From Candidatus Howiella intestinavium (lineage in GTDB: Bacteria > Bacillota > Clostridia > Oscillospirales > Acutalibacteraceae): a stretch of DNA of 64,000 nt. Where the stretch lies: contig CAJFVX010000024.1 of NCBI GenBank assembly GCA_904420585.1, positions 1-64,000 on the forward strand, in the 5' to 3' direction. The position numbers and the translations under genes are program-made. This document shows, piece after piece, positions 2,058 through 64,000 of the stretch. How positions within the stretch are numbered: the stretch's first letter is position 1; each line of letters opens with the position of its first letter. A model generated the notes under the pieces. The model saw only the letters and a program-made list of their open reading frames with translations. It searched no databases and was not told where the DNA came from.

Positions 2058-4456
2058 CTGAACAGATAAAAGATGGCTTTCTGCTTTTTGACGGGGCTAT
2101 GGGTACCATGCTCCAGCGGGCGGGGGTGGCGCCGGGCCAGCTTCCCGAGCTTTTGAACCTGACCGACCCCGGCCTGATTACAAGCATCCACAAGGCCTAT
2201 GTGGAGGCCGGCTGCCAGGTGGCATCGGCCAATACCTTCGGGGCCAACAGCCTGAAGCTTGCCGGCAGCGGACACACGGTGGAAGAGGTGGTAAAGGCGG
2301 GCATCGCCTGTGCCAAGGCGTCGGGCGCCCGCTGGACGGCCCTGGACTTAGGCCCCACCGGGCAGCTTCTGGAGCCCATGGGCACCCTTTCCTTTGAAAA
2401 GGCCTACGACCTCTATGCCGAGCAGATAAAGGCCGGCGCCGCCGCAGGGGCCGACCTCATTCTCATAGAAACCATTTCGGATTTATATGAGGCCAAGGCC
2501 GCCATACTGGCCGCCCGGGAACTGACCGACCTGCCGGTATTCTGCACCCTGACCTTTGAAGAAGGCCAGCGTACCTTTATCGGCGCCGACCCCCTGACCG
2601 CCGCCGTGGCCCTGAACGCCTGGGGGGTGGACGCCCTGGGGGTCAACTGCTCCCTGGGGCCGAAGGAGCTGCTGCCGGTGGTGGAAACCCTGCTTACCTA
2701 CGCCAAGGTGCCGGTGATGGTGCAGGCCAACGCCGGGCTGCCCCGGGAAGAGAATGGCCGCACGGTTTACGACATCGGGCCGGAGGACTACGCCGCCGCC
2801 GTGGAGCTTATGCTGGAAAAGGGCGTGCACATTGTGGGGGGCTGCTGCGGCACCGACCCGACCTACATGGCCCGCCTGCACAGCCTGCTGGAGGGCCGCC
2901 GGCCGGTGGAGACCCATCCCCGGACGGTCACGGCCGCCTGTTCGGGCACCACGACCTGCCTGCTGGACGGCCGGGTGTCGGTCATCGGGGAGCGCATCAA
3001 CCCCACCGGCAAGAAGCGGCTGAAGGAGGCCCTGCGGGAGGGGCGGATGGATTATATCATCGGGGAGGCCATCGACCAGACCAACGCCGGGGCCGACCTG
3101 CTGGACGTCAACGTAGGGCTGCCTGAGCTGGACGAGCCGGCTATGCTGGCAAAGGTTATCCGGGAGGTGCAGGGGGTCACCGCCCTGCCGCTGCAAATCG
3201 ACAGCTCCGACCCCGCCGCCATCGAGGCGGGAGTGCGGTGCTATTGCGGCAAGCCCATTATCAATTCGGTCAATGGCAAGAAAGAGACCATGGAACAGAT
3301 TTTCCCCATTGTCAAGAAGTACGGGGCCCTGGTCATCGGCCTGACGCTGGATGAAAAGGGCATCCCCCCCACAGCCGAGGAGCGGCTGGCTATAGCGGCC
3401 CGGATTCTGGAAACGGCCGAAAGCTACGGCATCCCCCGGGAGGATCTGCTCATCGACTGTTTGGTGCTGACCGCTTCGGCCCAGCAGGAGCAGGTGCTGG
3501 AGACCCTGAAGGCCATCAAGCTGGTCAAGAGCCGGCTGGGACTCAAGACGGTGCTGGGGGTCAGCAACGTATCCTTCGGCCTGCCCAATCGGCCCCTGCT
3601 CAACAGCACCTACCTGGCCGCCGCCTTTGGAGCGGGGCTGGACGCGCCGATTATCAATCCCATGTCGGCCGAAATCATGCGGGTGGTGGATACCTTCCGG
3701 GTGCTGGACAACGAGGACAAGGACGCCGCCGCCTATATCGCCAAGTATACCGGTACCGAAACGGCCGCAGCCGCTGCGCCTGTCCCACCGGCCGGCCAGG
3801 CGGGAGCGCCGGCTGTCCCACCGGCCGCCGAGACCCTGACCCTCTACGACTGCATCGTCCAGGGGCGCAGGGAGGAGGCGGTGCGCAAGACCACCGCCCT
3901 GCTGGAGAGCGGGGACGCCCTGGAGATTATCGACGGGCAGTTTGTGCCTGCGTTGGACTATGTGGGGGATCGGTTCGAGAAGGGAAAGCTGTTCCTGCCC
4001 CAGCTGATGCAGTCGGCCCAGGCGGTGAAGGCGGCCTTCTCGGTCATCAAGGCCCACAACGACGCGGCGGGCCGGCAGGGGGAAGCCCGGGGAAAAATCC
4101 TGCTGGCCACCGTCCAGGGGGACATTCACGACATCGGCAAAAATATAGTAAAGATGATGCTGGAAAACTACGGCTACGACGTGGTGGACCTGGGCAAGGA
4201 CGTGCCGGTGGAGCAGGTGGTGGAAGAGACCCTGAAGCAGCAAATCCCCCTGGTGGGCCTCAGTGCCCTGATGACCACTACGGTAAAAAGCATGCAGGAA
4301 ACCATCGAGGCCCTGCGGGCCGCCGGGGCGGCCTGCAGGGTGATGGTGGGCGGCGCGGTGCTCAACGAGGAGTACGCCGCCATGGTGGGCGCCGACTACT
4401 ACGCCAAGGATGCCCAGGCCAGCGTCCGCATCGCCAACGAATTTTTCGGCGGATAG
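2048..4456 (+). CDS. metH: Cobalamin-dependent methionine synthase lacking the activation domain
   Basis: This 802-residue protein transfers methyl from 5-methyl-THF through cobalamin to homocysteine. Modules in order: homocysteine/zinc domain (about 1-290, ligands Cys201 in VNCSLGP and Cys266/Cys267 in GGCCGT); pterin-binding domain (about 310-590, IGERINPTGKK, DVNVGLPE); helical cap (about 620-680); B12 Rossmann domain with DIHDIGKN, where His694 is the lower axial cobalt ligand. Full MetH is about 1,200 residues; the AdoMet activation module is absent here and encoded just upstream. Start TTG 2048 has GGAGG 7 nt away and opens the conserved N terminus; a longer ATG-started frame from 1889 is antecedent read-through. 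A Pro/Ala-rich linker lies near residues 578-605. Confidence 0.94.
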   Translation: MRITEQIKDGFLLFDGAMGTMLQRAGVAPGQLPELLNLTDPGLITSIHKAYVEAGCQVASANTFGANSLKLAGSGHTVEEVVKAGIACAKASGARWTALDLGPTGQLLEPMGTLSFEKAYDLYAEQIKAGAAAGADLILIETISDLYEAKAAILAARELTDLPVFCTLTFEEGQRTFIGADPLTAAVALNAWGVDALGVNCSLGPKELLPVVETLLTYAKVPVMVQANAGLPREENGRTVYDIGPEDYAAAVELMLEKGVHIVGGCCGTDPTYMARLHSLLEGRRPVETHPRTVTAACSGTTTCLLDGRVSVIGERINPTGKKRLKEALREGRMDYIIGEAIDQTNAGADLLDVNVGLPELDEPAMLAKVIREVQGVTALPLQIDSSDPAAIEAGVRCYCGKPIINSVNGKKETMEQIFPIVKKYGALVIGLTLDEKGIPPTAEERLAIAARILETAESYGIPREDLLIDCLVLTASAQQEQVLETLKAIKLVKSRLGLKTVLGVSNVSFGLPNRPLLNSTYLAAAFGAGLDAPIINPMSAEIMRVVDTFRVLDNEDKDAAAYIAKYTGTETAAAAAPVPPAGQAGAPAVPPAAETLTLYDCIVQGRREEAVRKTTALLESGDALEIIDGQFVPALDYVGDRFEKGKLFLPQLMQSAQAVKAAFSVIKAHNDAAGRQGEARGKILLATVQGDIHDIGKNIVKMMLENYGYDVVDLGKDVPVEQVVEETLKQQIPLVGLSALMTTTVKSMQETIEALRAAGAACRVMVGGAVLNEEYAAMVGADYYAKDAQASVRIANEFFGG

Positions 4457-4502
4457 GCAAAAAAGAAGGAGCCGCCTTATCATAAACGCAGGACCGCTTT
4501 TT

Positions 4503-35607: not shown

Positions 35608-35743
35608 AAACGCTCCGCCGGCGGGCCGGACAGAGCGTTTTGTATCCACCTCATCTTCCGGATATACCGCAGGATTTGGCACCTTGGCAAACGCCAGGTT
35701 GCCGGGCATCGCAGGGCCTGTTCCCTCCGCCGCTCTTGATAAG
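35608..35743 (-). promoter_or_regulatory. SAM-I riboswitch (S-box) with terminator controlling metK
   Basis: On the minus strand the aptamer spans about 35743-35650 with S-box elements CTTATCAAGAG, GGAGGGA, GCCCGGCAACC, AAGGTGCCAAATCC and the closing AAGATGAG. It is followed by a terminator, AAACGCTC (35608-35615 on the plus strand) pairing with GAGCGTTT (35633-35640), and TTTTTT. AdoMet binding should favour the terminator (OFF switch). Confidence 0.95.
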
Positions 35744-35785
35744 GAAAATCATTCAATTGTCTGGGGAGCCGGACAGGCTCCGGAT

Positions 35786-36454: not shown

Positions 36455-36657
36455 AGCCCCGCAGATAAAACATCTGCGGGGCTGGAACGTACGCAATCGG
36501 CCTGATGGGAAATGAGGGGAACTGCGCGCGCCTTCTTCCATCCGGACTGTAACCGTCGGCTCCGGAATCACACCGGAATCAGCTGTGCAATACACAGGTC
36601 GCGGGCTCGCCGGCCAAGGCCGGATTACCGCCGGTGGGGAATTGCACCCCGCCCCGA
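36455..36657 (-). promoter_or_regulatory. FMN riboswitch (RFN element) with terminator controlling ribU
   Basis: On the minus strand the aptamer covers about 36657-36532: GGGGCGGGGTGCAATTCCCC, ACCGGCGGTAAT, AGCCCGCGACC, GATTCCGGTGTGATTCCGG, GCCGACGGTTACAGTCCGG and ATGGAAGAAGG. The expression platform is a perfect terminator (36455-36466 with 36472-36483) followed by TTTTTGC. FMN should switch ribU off. Confidence 0.96.
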
Positions 36658-36679
36658 AGACAGCAATAAATTTGTTATT

Positions 36680-55537: not shown

Positions 55538-55566
55538 TTGACAAAGGCCAGGTAAGATGATATAAT
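55538..55566 (+). promoter_or_regulatory. Consensus promoter of the pel operon
   Basis: TTGACA (55538-55543), exactly 17 nt, TATAAT (55561-55566): the best sigma-A promoter in the window. Transcription should start near 55573, so the leader before the first gene is about 350 nt and holds both riboswitch candidates. Confidence 0.88.
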
Positions 55567-55582
55567 CATCATACTAAAAAAG

Positions 55583-55684
55583 TACATAGGAAGCTGAGAA
55601 GGGTACCGTGTATCTGGACGCTTGCGGTATCTGGAGCTAGTAGCGTAACCGGCAAAAAGGAAGACTTTTTTGCCGGTTTTTTTG
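55583..55684 (+). promoter_or_regulatory. Candidate c-di-GMP-II riboswitch with terminator
   Basis: The core GGACGCTTG ... AGTAGCGTAACC (55615-55650) matches class II elements (C. difficile GGGCACUUG ... AGUAGUGCAACC): the ACGCT/AGCGT stem replaces GCACU/AGUGC by compensatory change while CUUG, AGUAG and AACC are kept. GGAAGC and AAGGGTACC stand where the 5' GGAAAC and GGGUU pieces lie. The inner hairpin is weak. The conserved AACC overlaps the left arm of an intrinsic terminator (CCGGCAAAAA 55649-55658 with TTTTTGCCGG 55667-55676, then eight U), so ligand binding should prevent termination (ON switch). Confidence 0.7.
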
Positions 55685-55694
55685 TTTTCAACTG

Positions 55695-55817
55695 CATCTG
55701 TTTGGCAAAGCTGGCGAAAGCCAGTGACGCAAAGCGTAGAGGCTACCGCGGCTGTTATCGGCCGCCATGCCCGTCTGGCTGCAAGAAGGTGGATTTCACC
55801 CTTTTTGCAGCTTTTTT
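55695..55817 (+). promoter_or_regulatory. c-di-GMP-I (GEMM-I) riboswitch with terminator
   Basis: The aptamer (about 55700-55785) has GGCAAA, a GAAA-capped hairpin CTGGC-GAAA-GCCAG, the invariant GACGCAAAGC (55726-55735), the second hairpin and the closing GCCATGCCCGTCTGGC. It is followed by a terminator, GCTGCAA (55778-55784) pairing with TTGCAGC (55805-55811), inner GAAGGTG/CACC pairs and TTTTTT. The terminator's left arm overlaps the aptamer 3' end, again predicting a c-di-GMP ON switch. Confidence 0.9.
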
Positions 55818-55924
55818 ATTTGCCCGCACATCTTCCGGGCGGGCGCATACAATTCAAATGTACCCGCTTGTCCGGCGGCGGCCGGCGCGGGCCCGCATAC
55901 CGAAAGAGAAGGGAAGGGGTTTTT

Positions 55925-56830
55925 ATGAAGAAAAGTTTGTTGGGCTACAACAAGCAGGCGGTGGACGAAACCATAGGGGATCTGGAAATCCGCAACACCC
56001 GGCTGGAGACCCAGCTCAAGCGCCTGCAGGCCGAGCTGGACGCCGCCCGCAAGGAGCTGGAGGCGGAAAGAGAACATCCGGAAGAAAGTGAAGCCGATAC
56101 CGAGGAACTGGAGCAGCTGCGGGCCGAAAACCAGGCGCTGCAGGCTGAGAATCAGGCGCTCCAGGCCGGGAAGGAGCAGCTGCGGCAGGAGCGGGATTCC
56201 CTGGCCCAGCGGCTTCAGGCGGCCGGAAGCGTGACGGCTTCCCGGGATCAGCTGGAACAGGTCACCGGCATCTGCCGGGAGGCCTATGAGGAAATGATGC
56301 ATGCCAAAGAGCAGACTCAGCAGGGCATCAGCGCCTATGTGGGCGCCTTCTGGGAGGAATGGAACGTCTGCCAGGCCCGGATGCTGCAGGCGGCCCAGGA
56401 TATGGAGCGTGCCCGGGATGAGGGCCGTGAGGCTTTCCTGAGCATTGCCGACGAAATTCTGGCCGGTTATGAGAAGCTGACCGAGGCGGACGCCCGGATG
56501 CAGCGGCAGCTGACGGAGATGGAGGAAACCCGTTCCCAGGTGGAGCGGCAGCTGGAGGCAACCATTCGTTCTTTGGACGCGGAAAGGGAAAAACCTGCTG
56601 ACGAGTCAGAGGAAGAGGAGACCGATGGCTATGCCGTTCTGCAGGCCCTGCGCCGCCGGGAAAAGAAAAACCGGCCGGCCGAAGAAGTGGCGGAAGTCAG
56701 CCAAGAGCCGGATACAAAGGAAACGGCCAGCCGGATTATACCGGTCAAGCCGGCGGCCCCTATGGGGGATATCGGCATTGCGGTGGGGATTGACGCCCGC
56801 AATATCATGAGCCGCCGCAAGGGCTCCTGA
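55925..56830 (+). CDS. Coiled-coil protein with DivIVA-like N terminus, first gene of the pel operon
   Basis: A 301-residue soluble protein. The first 20 residues (SLLGYNKQAVDETIGDLE) recall the DivIVA/GpsB membrane-curvature motif GY-x-x-x-x-VD. A long coiled coil follows (about 20-100 and 125-225, heptads of Leu/Ala/Glu, direct repeat AENQALQAENQALQA), then an acidic linker and a short conserved-looking C terminus (DIGIAVGIDARNIMSRRKGS). I know no function. It could place the Pel synthase at a membrane site. It starts at ATG 55925 after GGGAAGGGG, about 110 nt after the class I riboswitch terminator, and its stop overlaps the next start (TGATG). Confidence 0.75.
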   Translation: MKKSLLGYNKQAVDETIGDLEIRNTRLETQLKRLQAELDAARKELEAEREHPEESEADTEELEQLRAENQALQAENQALQAGKEQLRQERDSLAQRLQAAGSVTASRDQLEQVTGICREAYEEMMHAKEQTQQGISAYVGAFWEEWNVCQARMLQAAQDMERARDEGREAFLSIADEILAGYEKLTEADARMQRQLTEMEETRSQVERQLEATIRSLDAEREKPADESEEEETDGYAVLQALRRREKKNRPAEEVAEVSQEPDTKETASRIIPVKPAAPMGDIGIAVGIDARNIMSRRKGS

Positions 56831-58629
56831 TGATGGATAAGCCGGATGGCCGGACCGCCGCCTTTTCCTCCGGCCGCTATGGGCTGCTGCTGATTCTGCT
56901 GCTGCTCATAGCGGCAGCGGCCGCCTTTCTGCTCCAGCCTATGGGCGTATATACCCGTTCGGCCGGTACGCTGACCGAATGGGAATATACCGCCGGTTCG
57001 GGAGAAAAGGAGCTGGAAACCGCCGGAACCTGGGAGACGGCCGACGCCGCCCATCCGGTGCAGACGGCCGGGAAGGATTGTCTGATCCTTCGGAGAGAGC
57101 TGCCTCCTTCGTCCTGCGACGCCCTTTGGCTGCGGCTTTTTTACGGTTCGGTATCGGTGCGCCTGGATGGGGAAGAGGTGTACGACGGCCTGGTATTTGG
57201 CGGCCCCTTTGCCGCCTTGGGGTATATGGTTCCCATAGAGCCGGCCGACAGAACCCGGACTCTGGAAATAACCGTATACAGCCCCTTGGCCTTTTCCTTC
57301 CACGCCGGTGCCGCACAGGCGGATTCGCTGGCGGAAAAGGGGCGGATGGCCTATGCGGTGCAGTGGATATGGTGCGCTTTGAGCACCGCCCTTTCCTGTA
57401 TCATGTTTATTGTGGCCCGCCGGCGGCCTTCCGGCAGACGGAAGCTGTGCCTTGCGGCCGGCGCGCTGCTGTTGTGCGGTATCCTGTTTGCGGCGGCCCC
57501 ATTGGCCGGCTGGGGGATACTGCCTGCGGCCCTGGGCCTTCGTATAACCCTTTCCGGGCTGACCATGGCTGTTTGGATGGCGATAATGGCCGTGGCATTA
57601 AACCGGATGGAATGGAGTCCGGCGGCCGAAGTGTGGGCAGCGGCCCACTTTGTATACGCCATATGCCTGCTGTGCTGGCCATACACGGTGTTTTTCGACG
57701 CCGTGGCAAAGGCTGGGCTGCTTTTGCAGCTGGGCAGCGCCGTATTTATAACTGTGATGGCCCTGCTGGGAAAATTCCGGCTGGACACGATGGCCGCCGC
57801 GGCCGTAACCCTGCCGCTGGCGGCGGGACTGCTGTACTGGCTCTGCCTGTTCCTGCAGGCGGAGGCCGGCTTCATGTCCTTTTCCCCGGCTGCCCTGCTG
57901 GTGTTCTGTGCTTTCTGCTTTATCCTGTGGGTGCGGCGGATCCGCCGGACGCACAGGCAGCTGCCGGCACAAGATGAGAGTGTTATCCCGGCCGACCTGC
58001 CGGATACCCTGCTTTCGGACGGCTGGGAGACAGAGGCCGGCGCCCGCTTTTTTGCCCTGTTGGACGACCGGTGCGCCGGCCTGGGGCAGCACGCCCTACG
58101 GGTGGCCGACTATACCCGGCTGCTCTGCCGGCAGATGGGCATGGGACAGGAGCAGACGAAAGAAATTGCCGCCGCGGCCCTTTTCCACGACATCGGCAAG
58201 CTGGAAGTAAAGCGGGATACTTTGTACAAGACCGGGCGGCTGACCGCCGAGGAATTTGAGGAAATCCAGCGGCACACCCTGTACGGGTACCGTATGCTGG
58301 AGGGCGGCAGCCGGCCCTTTTCGCAGATGGCCGCCCGCGTAGCCTACGAGCATCACGAGCATGTGGACGGAAGCGGTTATATGGGCCTTGCGGGGGAGGA
58401 CATCAGCCTGCCGGCCCGGATTGTGGCGGTGGCCGATGTGTTCGACGCCCTGACTTCTCCCAGAGGCTATAAACAGGCCTGGAACTTTGAGCAGGCTTTT
58501 GCCTATGTCTGCGAGCAGGGGGGCGGCTACTTTGACAAAGAGGCCGTCCGGGCCTTTTGCAAGGCCCGCCCCCAGCTGCTGGAGGCCTACAGGCGGCATA
58601 AAAGGGAAGAAGACGGGAGTTCGGAGTAA
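56830..58629 (+). CDS. Membrane HD-GYP-like phosphodiesterase
   Basis: The 599-residue protein has an N-terminal TM (about 17-38), an extracellular beta domain of the 7TMR-DISM kind (about 45-170, LFYGSVSVRLDGEEVYDG), seven or so TM helices (about 178-370) and a cytosolic HD-GYP-like domain (about 395-580): HALRVADYTRLL, HDIGKLEVKRD (His453, Asp454), RHTLYGYRML, YEHHEHVDGSGYMG and VADVFDALTSPRGYK. The GYP motif reads GYM, but all metal ligands are visible. It probably hydrolyses c-di-GMP in answer to an outside or envelope signal. It starts inside the preceding stop (TGATG), so translation is coupled. Confidence 0.88.
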   Translation: MMDKPDGRTAAFSSGRYGLLLILLLLIAAAAAFLLQPMGVYTRSAGTLTEWEYTAGSGEKELETAGTWETADAAHPVQTAGKDCLILRRELPPSSCDALWLRLFYGSVSVRLDGEEVYDGLVFGGPFAALGYMVPIEPADRTRTLEITVYSPLAFSFHAGAAQADSLAEKGRMAYAVQWIWCALSTALSCIMFIVARRRPSGRRKLCLAAGALLLCGILFAAAPLAGWGILPAALGLRITLSGLTMAVWMAIMAVALNRMEWSPAAEVWAAAHFVYAICLLCWPYTVFFDAVAKAGLLLQLGSAVFITVMALLGKFRLDTMAAAAVTLPLAAGLLYWLCLFLQAEAGFMSFSPAALLVFCAFCFILWVRRIRRTHRQLPAQDESVIPADLPDTLLSDGWETEAGARFFALLDDRCAGLGQHALRVADYTRLLCRQMGMGQEQTKEIAAAALFHDIGKLEVKRDTLYKTGRLTAEEFEEIQRHTLYGYRMLEGGSRPFSQMAARVAYEHHEHVDGSGYMGLAGEDISLPARIVAVADVFDALTSPRGYKQAWNFEQAFAYVCEQGGGYFDKEAVRAFCKARPQLLEAYRRHKREEDGSSE

Positions 58630-58644
58630 GAAAAGAGGGAACTT

Positions 58645-60744
58645 GTGGATATTTTGGTGACGGGCAGGCTGGCATCCATAACCGGCCAGATAGGCGAAGC
58701 GCTGAAACGGCGGCACAAGGTGGTGTATGCGTCGGACGACCTGGTTTCCGACCGGCTGCCCAAGGGTATAACGCCCTTTTCCCTGGCGCCGGGCAGCCGG
58801 GAATTCGAGCGGATTTTCCATTCCTACCACTTTGACGTGGTTATCTTCTTTGCCCAGCCGGTCTTTGGCGGCGAGGAGTATTACGGGGAATACAAGGATT
58901 TGGAGAACTGCCTGCGCATCTGCGCCGACCGGGATGTGAACCGGTTTATCTATGTCCGCCCGGCCCTCCAGGGGGAGGGGCAGGCGCCGGAGCATGATTT
59001 GAACGTCCTGTTCGCTTCCTGCGATCTGCTCTGCGACTATTACCGCAGACGGCGGGGGATGTCCATCCTCGTCTGCCATACCCCCCTTCTCTATGGAATG
59101 GGAGAGAGCGCCTCCCTGCCGGGCGGGGCCCTGCGGCAGGCCAAGGACAGGGGTTCGGTGCAGTTCCGGGGCGGTGAGAAGGACCGGGTGGGCCTTTTGT
59201 ACCAAGCCGACCTGGGCGAGCTGCTGCTGCGGGTGGCTGAGGACTGGAACCCCGCTCTGACCGAGATGGAAGTGCCGGCCGGGGACGTCCTTTCCTTTCT
59301 GGAACTGGGCGCCCTTTTAAAAATGGAATACCCGGCCCTGCGGTTGTCTTACAAGCCGGCCGGCTACCGGACGGCCGAGGTGCTGACGGGCGAAGTACCC
59401 AAGCGGGAATACGATTGGGTGCCCGTTACCCAATTGACCGACCTGTTGCCCGGGCTTATCCGCGCCCTGGAGGGAGAGCAGGGACAGCGGGCCTCCTTCC
59501 TGCAAAAGTGCAGGGATTTTCTCAAACGGCACAAATTCATTGTCCGGCTGGTGGAACTGATTCTGGGGTTCCTGCTCATGGAGCTGCTCAACCGGGTTAC
59601 GGCCACCACCATCCAGTTTCAATATGTGGATTTCCGGCTGCTGTATATCGTCCTGCTGGGCACCCTCCACGGCATGAAAACAGGTCTGGCTGCAGCGGGT
59701 TTGGCCAGTATATCCCTGCTGGCCTCCATGATTGTCAACCAGCCCAACTGGTATGTCACGGCCTATGATATGGAGAACTGGCTGCCCTTTATCTTTTACT
59801 TTCTCATAGGCGGCGTCACGGGCTATGTCAAGGACCGGCTGCGCAACGACAACCGGTTTTTGTCCGAGGAAAAGGCCCTGCTGGAAGAGCGGTATGTGCT
59901 GCTCAACGAATTTTACATGAGCGCCCTGCAAAACAAAGACCAGTACAAAATGCAGATCATGTCCTATCGGGACAGCTTCGGCCGCCTGTTCGACATCACC
60001 CAGAACCTGGACAGCACCCTGGTGGACGAGGTCTTCAACGAGGCCCTGCATGCGCTGGAGGGCGTGCTGGACAATAAGTCGGTCTGCCTCTACAGCTGTG
60101 ATGAAAAATTGCTCTTCGGCCGTCTGGTGGCCTGTTCCCGGGAGATTCGCAGCACCACCGAAAAGTCGGTCAACCTGTCCAAGCTGGAGAAGATGACGGT
60201 TGATTTTGCAGACGGGGAGGTCTGGGTCAACCGGGAGCGGCTGCTGGGCTACCCCGAGTACGCCGTGCCCATCTACCGGGAGGGAAAACCCATCGCCCTT
60301 ATCTTCCTGTGGAAGGCCAGCTTCGAACAGCTGGCGGTCTACTATGAGAACCTGGTCAAAATCATATGCGGGCTGGTGAAAATGGCCCTGGTCCACGCCC
60401 TGGAATACACCGAGCAGACCGAGAAGGAAATCTATCTGGAGGGCACCCCCATCGTCCGCAACGAGTATTTCTCCCAGATTTTGCAGGTCAAGGAGGAGAT
60501 GGCCCAGGAGGGCACCTCCGAATACAGCCTGATCCAGTTCCATACCACGCCGGAAAACCGGAGCGAGGTGGCCGGGCGGATAGCCCAGGTCATCCGCTCC
60601 ACCGACATCCTGGGCATGGGTTCCGACGGGGAGCTGTATCTCTGCCTGTCCCAGACCAATCAGGACAGCCTGCCGGTGGTGCTGGAGCGGATAAAGGGGA
60701 CCCTTCTGCCCTTCCGGGAGATGCAGAAAGGGGAGGCCATATGA
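58645..60744 (+). CDS. pelD: PelD-like c-di-GMP receptor fused to an N-terminal epimerase-like domain
   Basis: The 699-residue protein has a Rossmann NAD-epimerase-like domain (about 1-285; MDILVTG start, FDVVIFF, RFIYVRPALQG), then the PelD architecture: four TM helices (about 298-400), a coiled link, a GAF domain (about 440-590) and a degenerate GGDEF domain (about 595-695). GGDEF reads SDGEL (660-664), so no cyclase activity, but the I-site RxxD is kept as Arg651-Asp654, at the standard five residues before. PelD binding of c-di-GMP switches on Pel synthesis in Pseudomonas. GTG 58645 has AAGAGGGA. The epimerase fold lacks an obvious YxxxK pair, so it may be non-catalytic. Confidence 0.9.
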   Translation: MDILVTGRLASITGQIGEALKRRHKVVYASDDLVSDRLPKGITPFSLAPGSREFERIFHSYHFDVVIFFAQPVFGGEEYYGEYKDLENCLRICADRDVNRFIYVRPALQGEGQAPEHDLNVLFASCDLLCDYYRRRRGMSILVCHTPLLYGMGESASLPGGALRQAKDRGSVQFRGGEKDRVGLLYQADLGELLLRVAEDWNPALTEMEVPAGDVLSFLELGALLKMEYPALRLSYKPAGYRTAEVLTGEVPKREYDWVPVTQLTDLLPGLIRALEGEQGQRASFLQKCRDFLKRHKFIVRLVELILGFLLMELLNRVTATTIQFQYVDFRLLYIVLLGTLHGMKTGLAAAGLASISLLASMIVNQPNWYVTAYDMENWLPFIFYFLIGGVTGYVKDRLRNDNRFLSEEKALLEERYVLLNEFYMSALQNKDQYKMQIMSYRDSFGRLFDITQNLDSTLVDEVFNEALHALEGVLDNKSVCLYSCDEKLLFGRLVACSREIRSTTEKSVNLSKLEKMTVDFADGEVWVNRERLLGYPEYAVPIYREGKPIALIFLWKASFEQLAVYYENLVKIICGLVKMALVHALEYTEQTEKEIYLEGTPIVRNEYFSQILQVKEEMAQEGTSEYSLIQFHTTPENRSEVAGRIAQVIRSTDILGMGSDGELYLCLSQTNQDSLPVVLERIKGTLLPFREMQKGEAI

Positions 60745-61658
60745 CTCTGCGCCTTATTATAATCCTGTATCTCATCCTCCATATCCTGCTCTGCATTCTC
60801 GTATATGTAGGCATCCGCACGCGGGTTTTAAAATTTTCCGAACAGCTTTTTCCCATCATCGCCATGGTGCCGGTGGCCGGCATGGCGGCGGCGGTGGCGG
60901 CCGAGATCATGTCCCGTTTCCGCAAAGGCGGCAAAAAGGAAATGAGCCTGGAGGAGCTGCACATGGCCGAGGACGTGCGGCTGCAGCGTTTGGAGGAGTC
61001 GGAAGGGGACAGCATGGTGGTGCCCCTGGAGGAAGCCCTTTCGGTCAACGACGCCAAGACCCGCCGGCAGCTTATGCTGGAAATCCTGCATCAGAATCCC
61101 GGCGCCTATGTGGAACTTCTCCAGCAGGCCCGCATGGACGACGACATCGAAGTGACCCACTACGCCTCCACGGCCATGATGGAGCTGCAGCGGGATTTTG
61201 AGATAAATCTGCAGCGGGCCGAGCAGGAATATGAAAAGCAGCCCGACCAGCCCGAAAAGCTGGACAGGTGCCTCTACTGCCTGCGAAAATACATCGACAG
61301 CGGGCTGATTGAGGAAAGTATATTGTTCGTCTACCGTACCCGGTACGCCGAACTGCTGCAGAAAAAGCTGGAGCAGGAGCCGGAGAATATGCAGGCCTGC
61401 CAGTACGCAGTGGACAATTACCTGGGCCTTTCCAACTACCGGGAGGCCAAGTTCCTGGCCGACCGGATGCAGAACCGGTGGCCCGACCGGGAGGAAAGCT
61501 GGCTTTCCACCCTGAAGGTCTGCCAGCAGATGAACGACGCCGAAGGCATCCGGCGGGTCCTGCGCAAGGTAAAGCGGGGAAATGTCTATCTGTCCCCGGC
61601 CGGCCGGGAGGCCATCGCATTCTGGGATACCGAGGAAAGGGGGAAGAATCATGAATAA
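60741..61658 (+). CDS. pelE: PelE-like membrane protein with TPR-type helices
   Basis: The 305-residue protein has two N-terminal TM helices (about 4-26 and 38-58) and a cytosolic all-helical region (about 95-290) with TPR/HEAT-like spacing (YASTAMMELQRDFEI, LDRCLYCLRKYIDSG, ACQYAVDNYLGLSNYREA). In Pel systems PelE links PelD to the synthase PelF. Position (ATGA overlap with pelD, before the deacetylase and pelF) and architecture support the call; sequence similarity to Pseudomonas PelE cannot be judged by eye. Confidence 0.82.
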   Translation: MTLRLIIILYLILHILLCILVYVGIRTRVLKFSEQLFPIIAMVPVAGMAAAVAAEIMSRFRKGGKKEMSLEELHMAEDVRLQRLEESEGDSMVVPLEEALSVNDAKTRRQLMLEILHQNPGAYVELLQQARMDDDIEVTHYASTAMMELQRDFEINLQRAEQEYEKQPDQPEKLDRCLYCLRKYIDSGLIEESILFVYRTRYAELLQKKLEQEPENMQACQYAVDNYLGLSNYREAKFLADRMQNRWPDREESWLSTLKVCQQMNDAEGIRRVLRKVKRGNVYLSPAGREAIAFWDTEERGKNHE

Positions 61659-63498
61659 GGGCGTCTTTAAGAAATTTGTGATCACCTGCGTGACCATGGT
61701 GGTGCTGGCCGCCCTTTCGGTTGTGCTGCTTGCCGACTATATGGGCATCAGCTATTCGGTGGCCCCCTTCCAGCTGACCGACCTGCCCGAATCGGCCCTT
61801 TCCCAGAAGGAGGAGCGGGAAAATGCGGAGGCCTCCTGCCTGGTTCTGCGGGACAGTTCCCAGGAAAACAACGATATTTTCACCGGGCATGTGGAGGAAG
61901 TCCTCCAGCAAATGCGGGTGGGGTATGATATAACCGACCTGGCCGGCGAATCCGTGCCGGATTTTTCCGCCTACTCCACCTGTATCGTGGTCTTCCAGCA
62001 TCTGGACGTCATGGGCCAGTCCATTGTGGACATGTGCAACTGGGTGGAACAAAACGGCGGCCGGGTGCTCATCTTCTGTTCTTCGGACGCCTCCCCGGCC
62101 TACCGGTATCTGTGCCCCTATATCGGCGTGGAGGAGGGCGGCCGGGCCTATTCCTCGGTAAACGGCATGTACCTTTCGGACGATTTCATGATAGGCTCCG
62201 AGGGCTTCCAGTTCCACTGGGATGAGCCCATGTCCACGGCCATCAACATCCGGCTGAATGATGGGGCTAAGGTCTACGCCTGGTCGGACGATGAGAGCCG
62301 GCTGCCCCTGGTCTGGTCCAACGATGTGGGCAGCGGCCGGTTCGTGGTCATGAATATCGGCCTGAGCGAGAAGACCACCCGGGGCTTTACCTGCGCCTGC
62401 TACAGCCTGCTGGAGGATACCTGTGTCTATCCGGTTATCAACGCTTCCTCCTTTTTTCTGGACGACTTCCCCTCGCCGGTTCCCATGGGAGACGGCCAGT
62501 ATATCCGCCAGACCTACAACCGGGATATCTCCAGCTTTTATTCCAATGTCTGGTGGCCGGATATGCTCCAGTTCTGCGACGACTACGGGGTGAAATACAC
62601 CGGTGTGGTCATCGAAACCTACGAGGAGGAAGTGGACGGCTCCTTCCCGAGGCAGCAGGAGCTGGAACGGTTTGAGCATTTCGGCGCGCTGCTGCTGGGT
62701 CACGGCGGGGAAATCGGTCTGCACGGCTATAACCACCTGCCCCTCTGCTTTAACGGTTTTGATTTTAAGGGAGAGGTGGACTACGAAACCTGGAACCGAC
62801 GGGAGGACGTCATCACCGCCGTGCAGGAACTTATCGACTTCACCTCCATGCTTTTTCCGGAAAACCAGCCGTCGGTCTATGTGCCGCCCTCCAACATCCT
62901 CTCGGAAGAGGGCCGGGCGCTTCTCAAGGAGGAATTTCCCCAGATTAAAACCATCAGCAGCGTTTATCTTTATGTGGATGGCCAGATTGAATACACCCAG
63001 GAGTTTGAGGTGGCCGAGGACGGCATCGTGGAATTCCCCCGGGTCATATCCGGCGCCCTGCTGGACCAGTACATGTATTGGGCGGCCATCAACACCCTGA
63101 ATATGTACTATGTCAACTCCCACTTCATCCATCCCGACGACGTGCTGGACGAAGACCGGGGCGCGGCCCTGGGCTGGGAGCAGCTCCACGAGAACCTGGG
63201 GAATTACATGGACTGGCTGTACACCTCCGCCCCCAACATCCGCAACCTGGTGGCCAGCGATTCGGCCCGGGCGGTGCAGCGGTACGACGCCCTTTCGGTG
63301 GAACGGTCCGACGACGAGGATGGGATCCATCTGCGGCTGACCGGCTTCTGGGATGAGGCCTACCTGATGGTGCGCTGCAACAAGGGAAAGCCGGGCCAGG
63401 TGGCCGGCGGTACCATCGAGCACATCGCGGGGGATTATTACCTTTTGCGGGCCACCGAAGCCCAGGTGGACATTTCCATAGAGGGGGAGACGGCATGA
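61651..63498 (+). CDS. pelA: PelA-type deacetylase (DUF2194 family)
   Basis: The 615-residue protein has an N-terminal TM anchor (about 9-29), a Rossmann-like domain with GRVLIFCSSDASP (about 145-157), and a polysaccharide deacetylase-like domain: FFLDDFPSP (Asp271/Asp272) and LHGYNH (His358, His362, metal Hx3H). This is the DUF2194 layout of Gram-positive PelA deacetylase proteins, which remove acetyl from the GalNAc-rich polymer outside the cell; the PelA hydrolase domain is not included. It starts at ATG 61651 after GGGGGAAG, overlapping pelE by 8 nt, and is followed by pelF with a 4-nt overlap. Confidence 0.88.
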   Translation: MNKGVFKKFVITCVTMVVLAALSVVLLADYMGISYSVAPFQLTDLPESALSQKEERENAEASCLVLRDSSQENNDIFTGHVEEVLQQMRVGYDITDLAGESVPDFSAYSTCIVVFQHLDVMGQSIVDMCNWVEQNGGRVLIFCSSDASPAYRYLCPYIGVEEGGRAYSSVNGMYLSDDFMIGSEGFQFHWDEPMSTAINIRLNDGAKVYAWSDDESRLPLVWSNDVGSGRFVVMNIGLSEKTTRGFTCACYSLLEDTCVYPVINASSFFLDDFPSPVPMGDGQYIRQTYNRDISSFYSNVWWPDMLQFCDDYGVKYTGVVIETYEEEVDGSFPRQQELERFEHFGALLLGHGGEIGLHGYNHLPLCFNGFDFKGEVDYETWNRREDVITAVQELIDFTSMLFPENQPSVYVPPSNILSEEGRALLKEEFPQIKTISSVYLYVDGQIEYTQEFEVAEDGIVEFPRVISGALLDQYMYWAAINTLNMYYVNSHFIHPDDVLDEDRGAALGWEQLHENLGNYMDWLYTSAPNIRNLVASDSARAVQRYDALSVERSDDEDGIHLRLTGFWDEAYLMVRCNKGKPGQVAGGTIEHIAGDYYLLRATEAQVDISIEGETA

Positions 63499-64000
63499 GG
63501 GTCTGCATGGTTCTGGAGGGATGCTATCCTTACGTCCGCGGCGGTGTATCCACCTGGACCCACTCCCTCATCACCTCCAACCCCCAGCACGAATACGTCC
63601 TCTGGCTCATCGGAGCCAAGGCGGAGGACAGGGGGAACTTCAAGTATGAAATACCGAAGAACGTGGTGGAAATCCATGAAATCTTTCTGGACGACGCCCT
63701 GCGCCTGCGGGGCAGCGCCCGGGACCGGTTTCACTTTAACCGGCAGCAGACGGCGGCTTTAAAAGAGCTGATACTCTGCGGCCGGCCGGACTGGGAAACC
63801 CTTTTTGACCTGTATCATACAAAGCGGGTCAGCGCCCTGTCCTTTCTCATGAGCGAGGATTTTTTGAAAATCCTCATCGAGGTCTGTGAGGAAAAGTACC
63901 CTTACATCTCCTTTGCCGACTTTTTCCACAGCATCCGCTCCATGTTCCTGCCTATACTCTACCTGCTGGGGCAGGAGGCGCCCGAGGCGGATGTCTACCA
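63495..64000 (+). CDS. pelF: PelF-like GT4 glycosyltransferase (cut by window end)
   Basis: The first 168 codons are visible. They begin MRVCMVLEGCYPYVRGGVS, nearly the signature of PelF (DUF3492 plus GT4) cytosolic glycosyltransferases, which polymerise UDP-HexNAc to Pel. WTHSLI, YVLWLIGA and the helical insertion KRVSALSFLMSEDFLKIL fit DUF3492. ATG 63495 overlaps the pelA stop (ATGA). pelG, the membrane export partner, would be expected next, beyond the window. Confidence 0.93.
   Translation, partial: MRVCMVLEGCYPYVRGGVSTWTHSLITSNPQHEYVLWLIGAKAEDRGNFKYEIPKNVVEIHEIFLDDALRLRGSARDRFHFNRQQTAALKELILCGRPDWETLFDLYHTKRVSALSFLMSEDFLKILIEVCEEKYPYISFADFFHSIRSMFLPILYLLGQEAPEADVY

Follow-up and report, generated by a model that had tools for sequence, protein, structure and literature searches.

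We identified, in Candidatus Howiella intestinavium, a pel operon in which the c-di-GMP receptor PelD is accompanied by riboswitches of two c-di-GMP classes (one of them probable) and by an HD-GYP phosphodiesterase gene that lies beside pelD and is fused to it in relatives. This operon context is what looks new and appears undescribed. The window, by which we mean the whole analyzed stretch of 64,000 nucleotides, was read on its forward strand, and all operon features given below lie on the plus strand. The overall explanation that we consider probable combines an SDR-PelD receptor, whose SDR domain would be a pseudoenzyme scaffold, with serial ON riboswitches, gating through the PelD I-site and local feedback from the HD-GYP protein.

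The pelD gene (58645-60744) encodes a 699-residue protein that its open reading frame, the alignment of relatives and an AlphaFold2 model resolve into SDR, transmembrane, GAF and degenerate GGDEF parts. It opens with a GTG start, preceded by GAGGGA at 58634-58639, and runs through 699 codons as a single intact frame without internal stop. AlphaFold2 modeled the whole chain with a mean pLDDT of 87.8 and placed transmembrane helices at residues about 297-400 (59533-59844), where there is also a weak DUF4118 match. A GAF-like domain follows at residues about 460-591 (60022-60417), as seen in the model and in GAF family matches to 10 of 24 relatives. The model and C-terminal family matches agree on the order of transmembrane helices, GAF and degenerate GGDEF. 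A frame error fusing two genes near 59.5 kb, which would have undermined the initial annotation, is ruled out by the intact frame and by recurrence of the architecture: when we aligned 33 PelD proteins (the window protein and 32 relatives), the SDR domain stood ahead of the transmembrane region in 28 of the 32 relatives. In two unrelated genomes, PelD (L076, 5420-7655; L086, 5308-7501) shows a GAF frame shift at nearly the same place. We rejected these split proteins as a natural GGDEF-less form, since the frames show GAF frame shifts that probably reflect mutation or assembly error.

Family profiles were of little help in recognizing this protein. Pfam and NCBIfam gave almost no matches to PelD itself, and phmmer against the PDB returned nothing useful. 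The Pfam family PF16963 (PelD_GGDEF) did not match the window PelD and matched only one of 24 relatives (E 0.11). The validated B. cereus PelD is likewise reported to miss PF16963 (PMC7112168), so this family is not required for a Gram-positive PelD. A contig search with query P0001 found only two Chloroflexi relatives. The genomes searched are samples (about 1,200), several of them incomplete, and PelD occurs in a few percent.

In the degenerate GGDEF domain (residues about 600-692, 60442-60720), SDGEL replaces GGDEF, and the initial annotation was right that the cyclase signature is lost. It had also called a kept I-site, Arg651-x-x-Asp654, five residues before SDGEL. The RSTD motif indeed occupies this position, and upon analysis of the 33-protein alignment we found that R651 (60595-60597) is invariant and that D654 (60604-60606) and a third arginine, R682 (60688-60690), are nearly invariant. 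These residues correspond to R363, D366 and R395 of B. cereus PelD, which are reported to matter for c-di-GMP binding, and B. cereus biofilm requires that binding (PMC7112168). Given this conservation and the B. cereus findings, the I-site of the window PelD is predicted to bind c-di-GMP. Judged by its sequence, the window PelD belongs to an already known kind of c-di-GMP receptor, the Gram-positive PelDs that carry an SDR, as a new member with a degenerate SDR and a kept GGDEF domain.

The front domain (residues ~1-280, 58645-59484) was recognized as a degenerate extended SDR by profile, Foldseek and alignment. Foldseek with residues 1-280 retrieved UDP-sugar epimerases and extended SDRs (E about 1e-13, target-normalised TM about 0.7), and the SDR family profile matches the UDP-glucose 4-epimerase 4zrm at 2e-44. 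Both results bear out the fold of the ~285-residue Rossmann/epimerase-like front part that had been proposed. The residues of an enzyme, by contrast, are gone. Relatives that keep GGYGFIG and YxxxK (L069, L070 and L078; also L075 and L076) served as the reference. Compared with these, the GGxGFIG position reads GRLASIT, leaving no GxxGxxG cofactor motif, and R105, L119 and F123 stand where the catalytic Ser, Tyr and Lys would be. The Gly motif and Ser/Tyr/Lys are replaced in most relatives too, and YxxxK is lost in every PelD that has HD-GYP next to it or fused to it, five of each. We reject an active epimerase for the window PelD and conclude from these replacements that the front domain is a predicted pseudoenzyme.

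The initial annotation had suggested that this domain could act on a nucleotide sugar, by binding or converting it, and so tie synthase activation to precursor supply; we weighed this for a UDP-sugar. Its fold is that of a UDP-sugar 4-epimerase, and the minority of relatives with GGxGFIG and YxxxK (L069, L070, L075, L076, L078) may be active, which implies that the domain probably began as an enzyme. For the window protein, the loss of the Gly motif and of all three catalytic residues, a loss that it shares with most relatives, leaves nucleotide-sugar conversion unsupported and very unlikely, and several other Epimerase-family proteins are encoded elsewhere in the genome; we regard the proposal as a whole as improbable. 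Binding of a nucleotide sugar without catalysis would be no more than a possibility. In two relatives, a separate GalE-type gene with intact motifs (L082, 3423-4469; L086, 4289-5338) lies directly before a PelD without the SDR YxxxK.

At the other extreme, the SDR domain could be a relic that has no function left and is decaying. No other part of PelD is less conserved: its identity between the window and its nearest relatives is 41-42%, versus 60-67% for GAF and TM. A streptococcal strain without the SDR is also reported to still form Pel-dependent biofilm (PMC7112168). Decay nevertheless fits poorly with a domain that has stayed full length and in frame across widely divergent lineages. Codon positions in the SDR domain differ between the window and L053 at 0.47, 0.34 and 0.66, and this concentration of changes at third positions indicates that the domain is still constrained. 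Clade-specific residues such as Y61, C130, Y133, P147 and W258 are also retained. We therefore give the relic reading very little credence. Most likely, the pseudoenzyme domain would give the Pel synthase complex a surface for docking or scaffolding.

The genes around pelD form an operon. Its first gene (55925-56830, an open reading frame) encodes a coiled-coil protein with an N-terminal GYxxxxxD motif, and its stop overlaps the start of the HD-GYP gene at 56830. Relatives of its N-terminal part precede HD-GYP also in L054, L055 and L056. The motif is DivIVA-like, and the protein could determine where in the cell the Pel complex sits. Downstream, pelD ends in TGATG, which overlaps the start of pelE (60744-61658), a gene assigned by its place and by relatives in pel loci, with no Pfam match above cut-off. 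It is followed by a deacetylase-type pelA gene (61651-63498; DUF2194, Pfam 1.1e-161) and by the start of the glycosyltransferase gene pelF (63495-64000, Pfam), which continues beyond the window; the starts of both overlap shortly with the preceding genes. The contig beyond the window (L008) continues after pelF with pelG, CotH, VTC, DUF4956 and DUF4832 genes. The operon, in which pelD is joined by pelE, pelA, pelF and pelG, is thus a complete pelDEA(DA)FG with the known CotH/VTC/DUF4956/DUF4832 extension, an accessory set of a type reported for streptococcal and clostridial pel clusters.

Analysis of the leader revealed two aptamers, each followed by a terminator. A sigma-70 type promoter at 55538-55566 (TTGACA-17-TATAAT, extended -10 TG) gives 12/12 matches, and 0.4 promoter-like sites are expected in shuffles of the region. 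The first aptamer, at 55590-55653, belongs to the c-di-GMP-II class (RF01786). It scored 52.1 bits, 1.4 below the gathering threshold of 53.5 (E 8.8e-11 in 431 bases), and we therefore call it probable. Support comes from ACGC/GCGU, which are the pseudoknot strands in this class: where the consensus has GCAC/GUGC, two pairs are changed in a compensatory way, as read from the alignment, in strands that the covariance model does not pair. Intrinsic terminator 1 (55647-55686, with its hairpin at 55647-55678 and a U run; -19.4 kcal/mol, z -4.5) shares 7 nt with the 3′ end of this aptamer. The second aptamer, a full-length c-di-GMP-I riboswitch at 55694-55786 (RF01051), scored 59.6 bits, above the gathering threshold of 35. 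Intrinsic terminator 2 (55777-55818, hairpin 55777-55812 plus U run; -20.6 kcal/mol, z -5.0) shares 10 nt with its 3′ strand.

Aptamers of the c-di-GMP-I type stand ahead of four further loci: L054 (70.3 bits), L055 (with the variant family c-di-GMP-I-GGC), L056 and L064. We found no riboswitch at L058, L105, L065 or L066, nor at L057 (L107), L067, L068, L002 or L003. For all six aptamers in these five loci, including the window, the 5′ arm of the following terminator takes bases of the aptamer 3′ strand; at L056 the hairpin from the scan was weaker and overlapped by 4 nt, and a longer hairpin was read by eye. The shared bases imply that a ligand-bound aptamer and its terminator should exclude each other, as in an ON arrangement. 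The two riboswitches would then be ON switches in series, with the expression platform judged from the overlap only. OFF-type c-di-GMP-I riboswitches do exist, and with the platform judged in this way one or both units could be OFF, so that high c-di-GMP shuts the operon. We find this highly improbable given the recurrent overlap of terminator 5′ arm and aptamer 3′ strand and given that an ON switch fits the activation of PelD by c-di-GMP. Elsewhere in the window, a SAM riboswitch and an FMN riboswitch lie about 0.8 kb apart on the minus strand (35648-35745 and 36526-36665).

The gene directly upstream of pelD (56830-58629) encodes a predicted 599-residue membrane HD-GYP c-di-GMP phosphodiesterase (Pfam HD_5, 5e-35) with a predicted beta-rich ectodomain, transmembrane helices and HD-GYP at residues about 410-571. 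The metal-ligand motifs H, HD, H, HH and D are all present. The HHExxDGxGYP motif reads HHEHVDGSGYM, with one residue missing after it, and these changes may alter activity; the HD-GYP of the fused relatives has a complete GYP. Foldseek related the protein model to PmGH (4mcw) and PA4781 (4r8z). The ectodomain gave a weak match to the RetS sensor domain (E 0.05), which is only a hint since the model is itself weak (pLDDT 65.6, built from four sequences), and a carbohydrate signal to the ectodomain would be a guess.

Among 36 pel loci with annotated neighborhoods, an HD-GYP gene stands directly upstream of pelD in five (the window, L053, L054, L055 and L056). In five others (L058, L060, L064, L065 and L066), HD-GYP is fused to the N terminus of SDR-PelD, in open frames of 929-952 aa. 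In L057, L067 and L068, which belong to the same PelD clade, we found no HD-GYP nearby, so PelD can do without this partner. The PelD tree supports the adjacent and the fused group each on its own (98/97 and 100/100). Both fall in a 13-row clade (98/94), which includes these three rows without HD-GYP. The tree of HD-GYP domains puts the fused group with a response-regulator HD-GYP encoded in the window genome and not with the adjacent group (98/94). Taken together, and keeping in mind the long branches, the two trees make two recruitments of HD-GYP likely. In one further locus (L063, 2640-5802), two PelD-like open reading frames lie side by side, one of them SDR-only at the contig end; an HD-GYP gene lies about 1.2 kb beyond the PelD frame, and this PelD has lost the I-site aspartate.

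Does the HD-GYP protein act on PelD locally, or is it a mere neighbor that lowers the global c-di-GMP pool with no physical or local coupling? The two are separate proteins in the window lineage, and the window genome has other c-di-GMP enzymes, as a mere neighbor would allow. Such a reading does not readily explain why adjacency is kept at PelD identities of only 37-52%, or why a sister lineage came to fuse the two, and phosphodiesterases do act at PelD elsewhere: in P. aeruginosa, the PelD complex is associated with RmcA and MorA (PMC7858071). Local action on an effector also has a precedent in DgcJ, which acts locally on NfrB in E. coli. We consider uncoupled action rather unlikely and, by adjacency, fusion and analogy with these precedents, favor c-di-GMP hydrolysis by HD-GYP close to PelD.

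The c-di-GMP inventory of the genomes gives this arrangement further context. G023 (99% complete), G272 (94%) and G243 (97%) each encode one HD-GYP protein, fused to or next to PelD, with GGDEF and EAL matches numbering 2 and 1, 2 and 1, and 1 and 0, respectively. These matches lie on the pel contig within about 17 kb, and all GGDEF, EAL and HD-GYP found in the three genomes are thus at the pel locus. In G023 and G272, the GGDEF/EAL genes come directly after DUF4956 and in the same orientation. A search for PilZ that gave matches in control genomes found none in ten genomes. The window genome itself encodes three GGDEF proteins, of which one also has EAL, and, away from pelD, a second HD-GYP; its c-di-GMP pool is therefore not private to Pel.

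The favored mechanism starts from the observed gene order, motifs, aptamers, overlapping terminators and fusion in relatives, and adds to them the probable ON direction, local hydrolysis and scaffold role. Rising c-di-GMP would relieve two terminators in series through the class II and class I riboswitches, and the operon would be read only after both are relieved. c-di-GMP would then have to occupy the PelD I-site before the synthase works and Pel is made. HD-GYP from the same transcript would hydrolyze c-di-GMP close to PelD, a negative feedback that would act locally and may be tuned by the membrane ectodomain. A sharper response is expected from the mixed riboswitch pair, and the SDR pseudoenzyme, kept by selection, would offer a docking or scaffold surface in the synthase complex. 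For the clade related to the window genome, we put forward with about equal confidence and doubt that Pel is a nearly self-contained c-di-GMP circuit. ON riboswitches (class II and class I in the window) would gate transcription and PelD would gate activity, while a dedicated HD-GYP would reset c-di-GMP at the receptor. This HD-GYP would have been recruited on two or more occasions, and its fusion to PelD in one lineage, HD-GYP-SDR-TM-GAF-GGDEF, would make up a PelD class that is so far undescribed. P. aeruginosa controls pel expression through the protein FleQ; here, if the circuit holds, pel expression would be under RNA sensors of c-di-GMP, among them a mixed-class, same-ligand riboswitch pair unlisted in survey tables. 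Whether a c-di-GMP effector relies on local enzymes of its own or draws on the global pool is a long-standing question. PelD-phosphodiesterase fusions, in genomes whose only GGDEF, EAL and HD-GYP found are at the same locus, make this question directly testable.

Part of this picture was known. The initial annotation had presented the SDR-PelD fusion as a departure, but Whitfield et al. 2020 already describe an N-terminal SDR in the PelDs of Brevibacillus, streptococci, clostridia and actinobacteria, and Brevibacillus is the only one of these in which it is not degenerate (PMC7112168). A 2025 paper refers to four classes of PelD, distinguished by GGDEF, SDR and degenerate SDR (PMC12345266). 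Of that annotation, the anatomy, the kept I-site and the lost cyclase signature stand, and the novelty of the fusion and sugar conversion do not; the riboswitches and the HD-GYP partner had been missed. With the published Gram-positive SDR-PelDs the window shares the SDR-TM-GAF-degenerate GGDEF order, the degenerate SDR and the kept I-site, and with Gram-positive pel operons it shares pelDEA(DA)FG with CotH, polyphosphate polymerase, DUF4956 and DUF4832 genes. It differs in the HD-GYP by or fused to pelD, the coiled-coil first gene and the riboswitch leader, which go unmentioned in the consulted portions of PMC7112168 and PMC12345266. Full-text searches within an open-access library (the supplementary figures of the 2020 paper excluded) returned no description of PelD with HD-GYP or with a riboswitch. 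RmcA and MorA are encoded apart from the pel operon and are not known to be fused to PelD. The likeness to them lies in a phosphodiesterase associating with the PelD complex (PMC7858071).

The leader resembles known tandem c-di-GMP riboswitches, in which two independent same-ligand aptamer-terminator units stand in series and a sharper response is expected (PMC4759541, PMC9481103). The survey tables of these papers list I+I and II+II and no II+I pair, and in the main tandem-riboswitch survey SAM is the only ligand with pairs of mixed class. Both c-di-GMP classes are treated as a single family in a 2025 study, whose data could therefore include a mixed pair without naming it.

The bifidobacterial pel operon, as described in PMC7112168, also has a c-di-GMP enzyme gene in the cluster, a dual DGC/PDE replacing DUF4832. 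That gene lies downstream, whereas in the window HD-GYP directly precedes pelD and is fused to it in relatives. L105 (3731-7428) and L106 (2885-6585), of the fused lineage, resemble the bifidobacterial operon in having GGDEF-EAL and GGDEF genes after DUF4956. Their pel operons continue with PAS-GGDEF-EAL and Cache-HAMP-GGDEF genes, so both arms of c-di-GMP turnover appear within one operon. In L109 (G490), a divergent gene next to pelD (3416-4492) gives GGDEF and partial EAL matches and is another c-di-GMP enzyme beside pelD.
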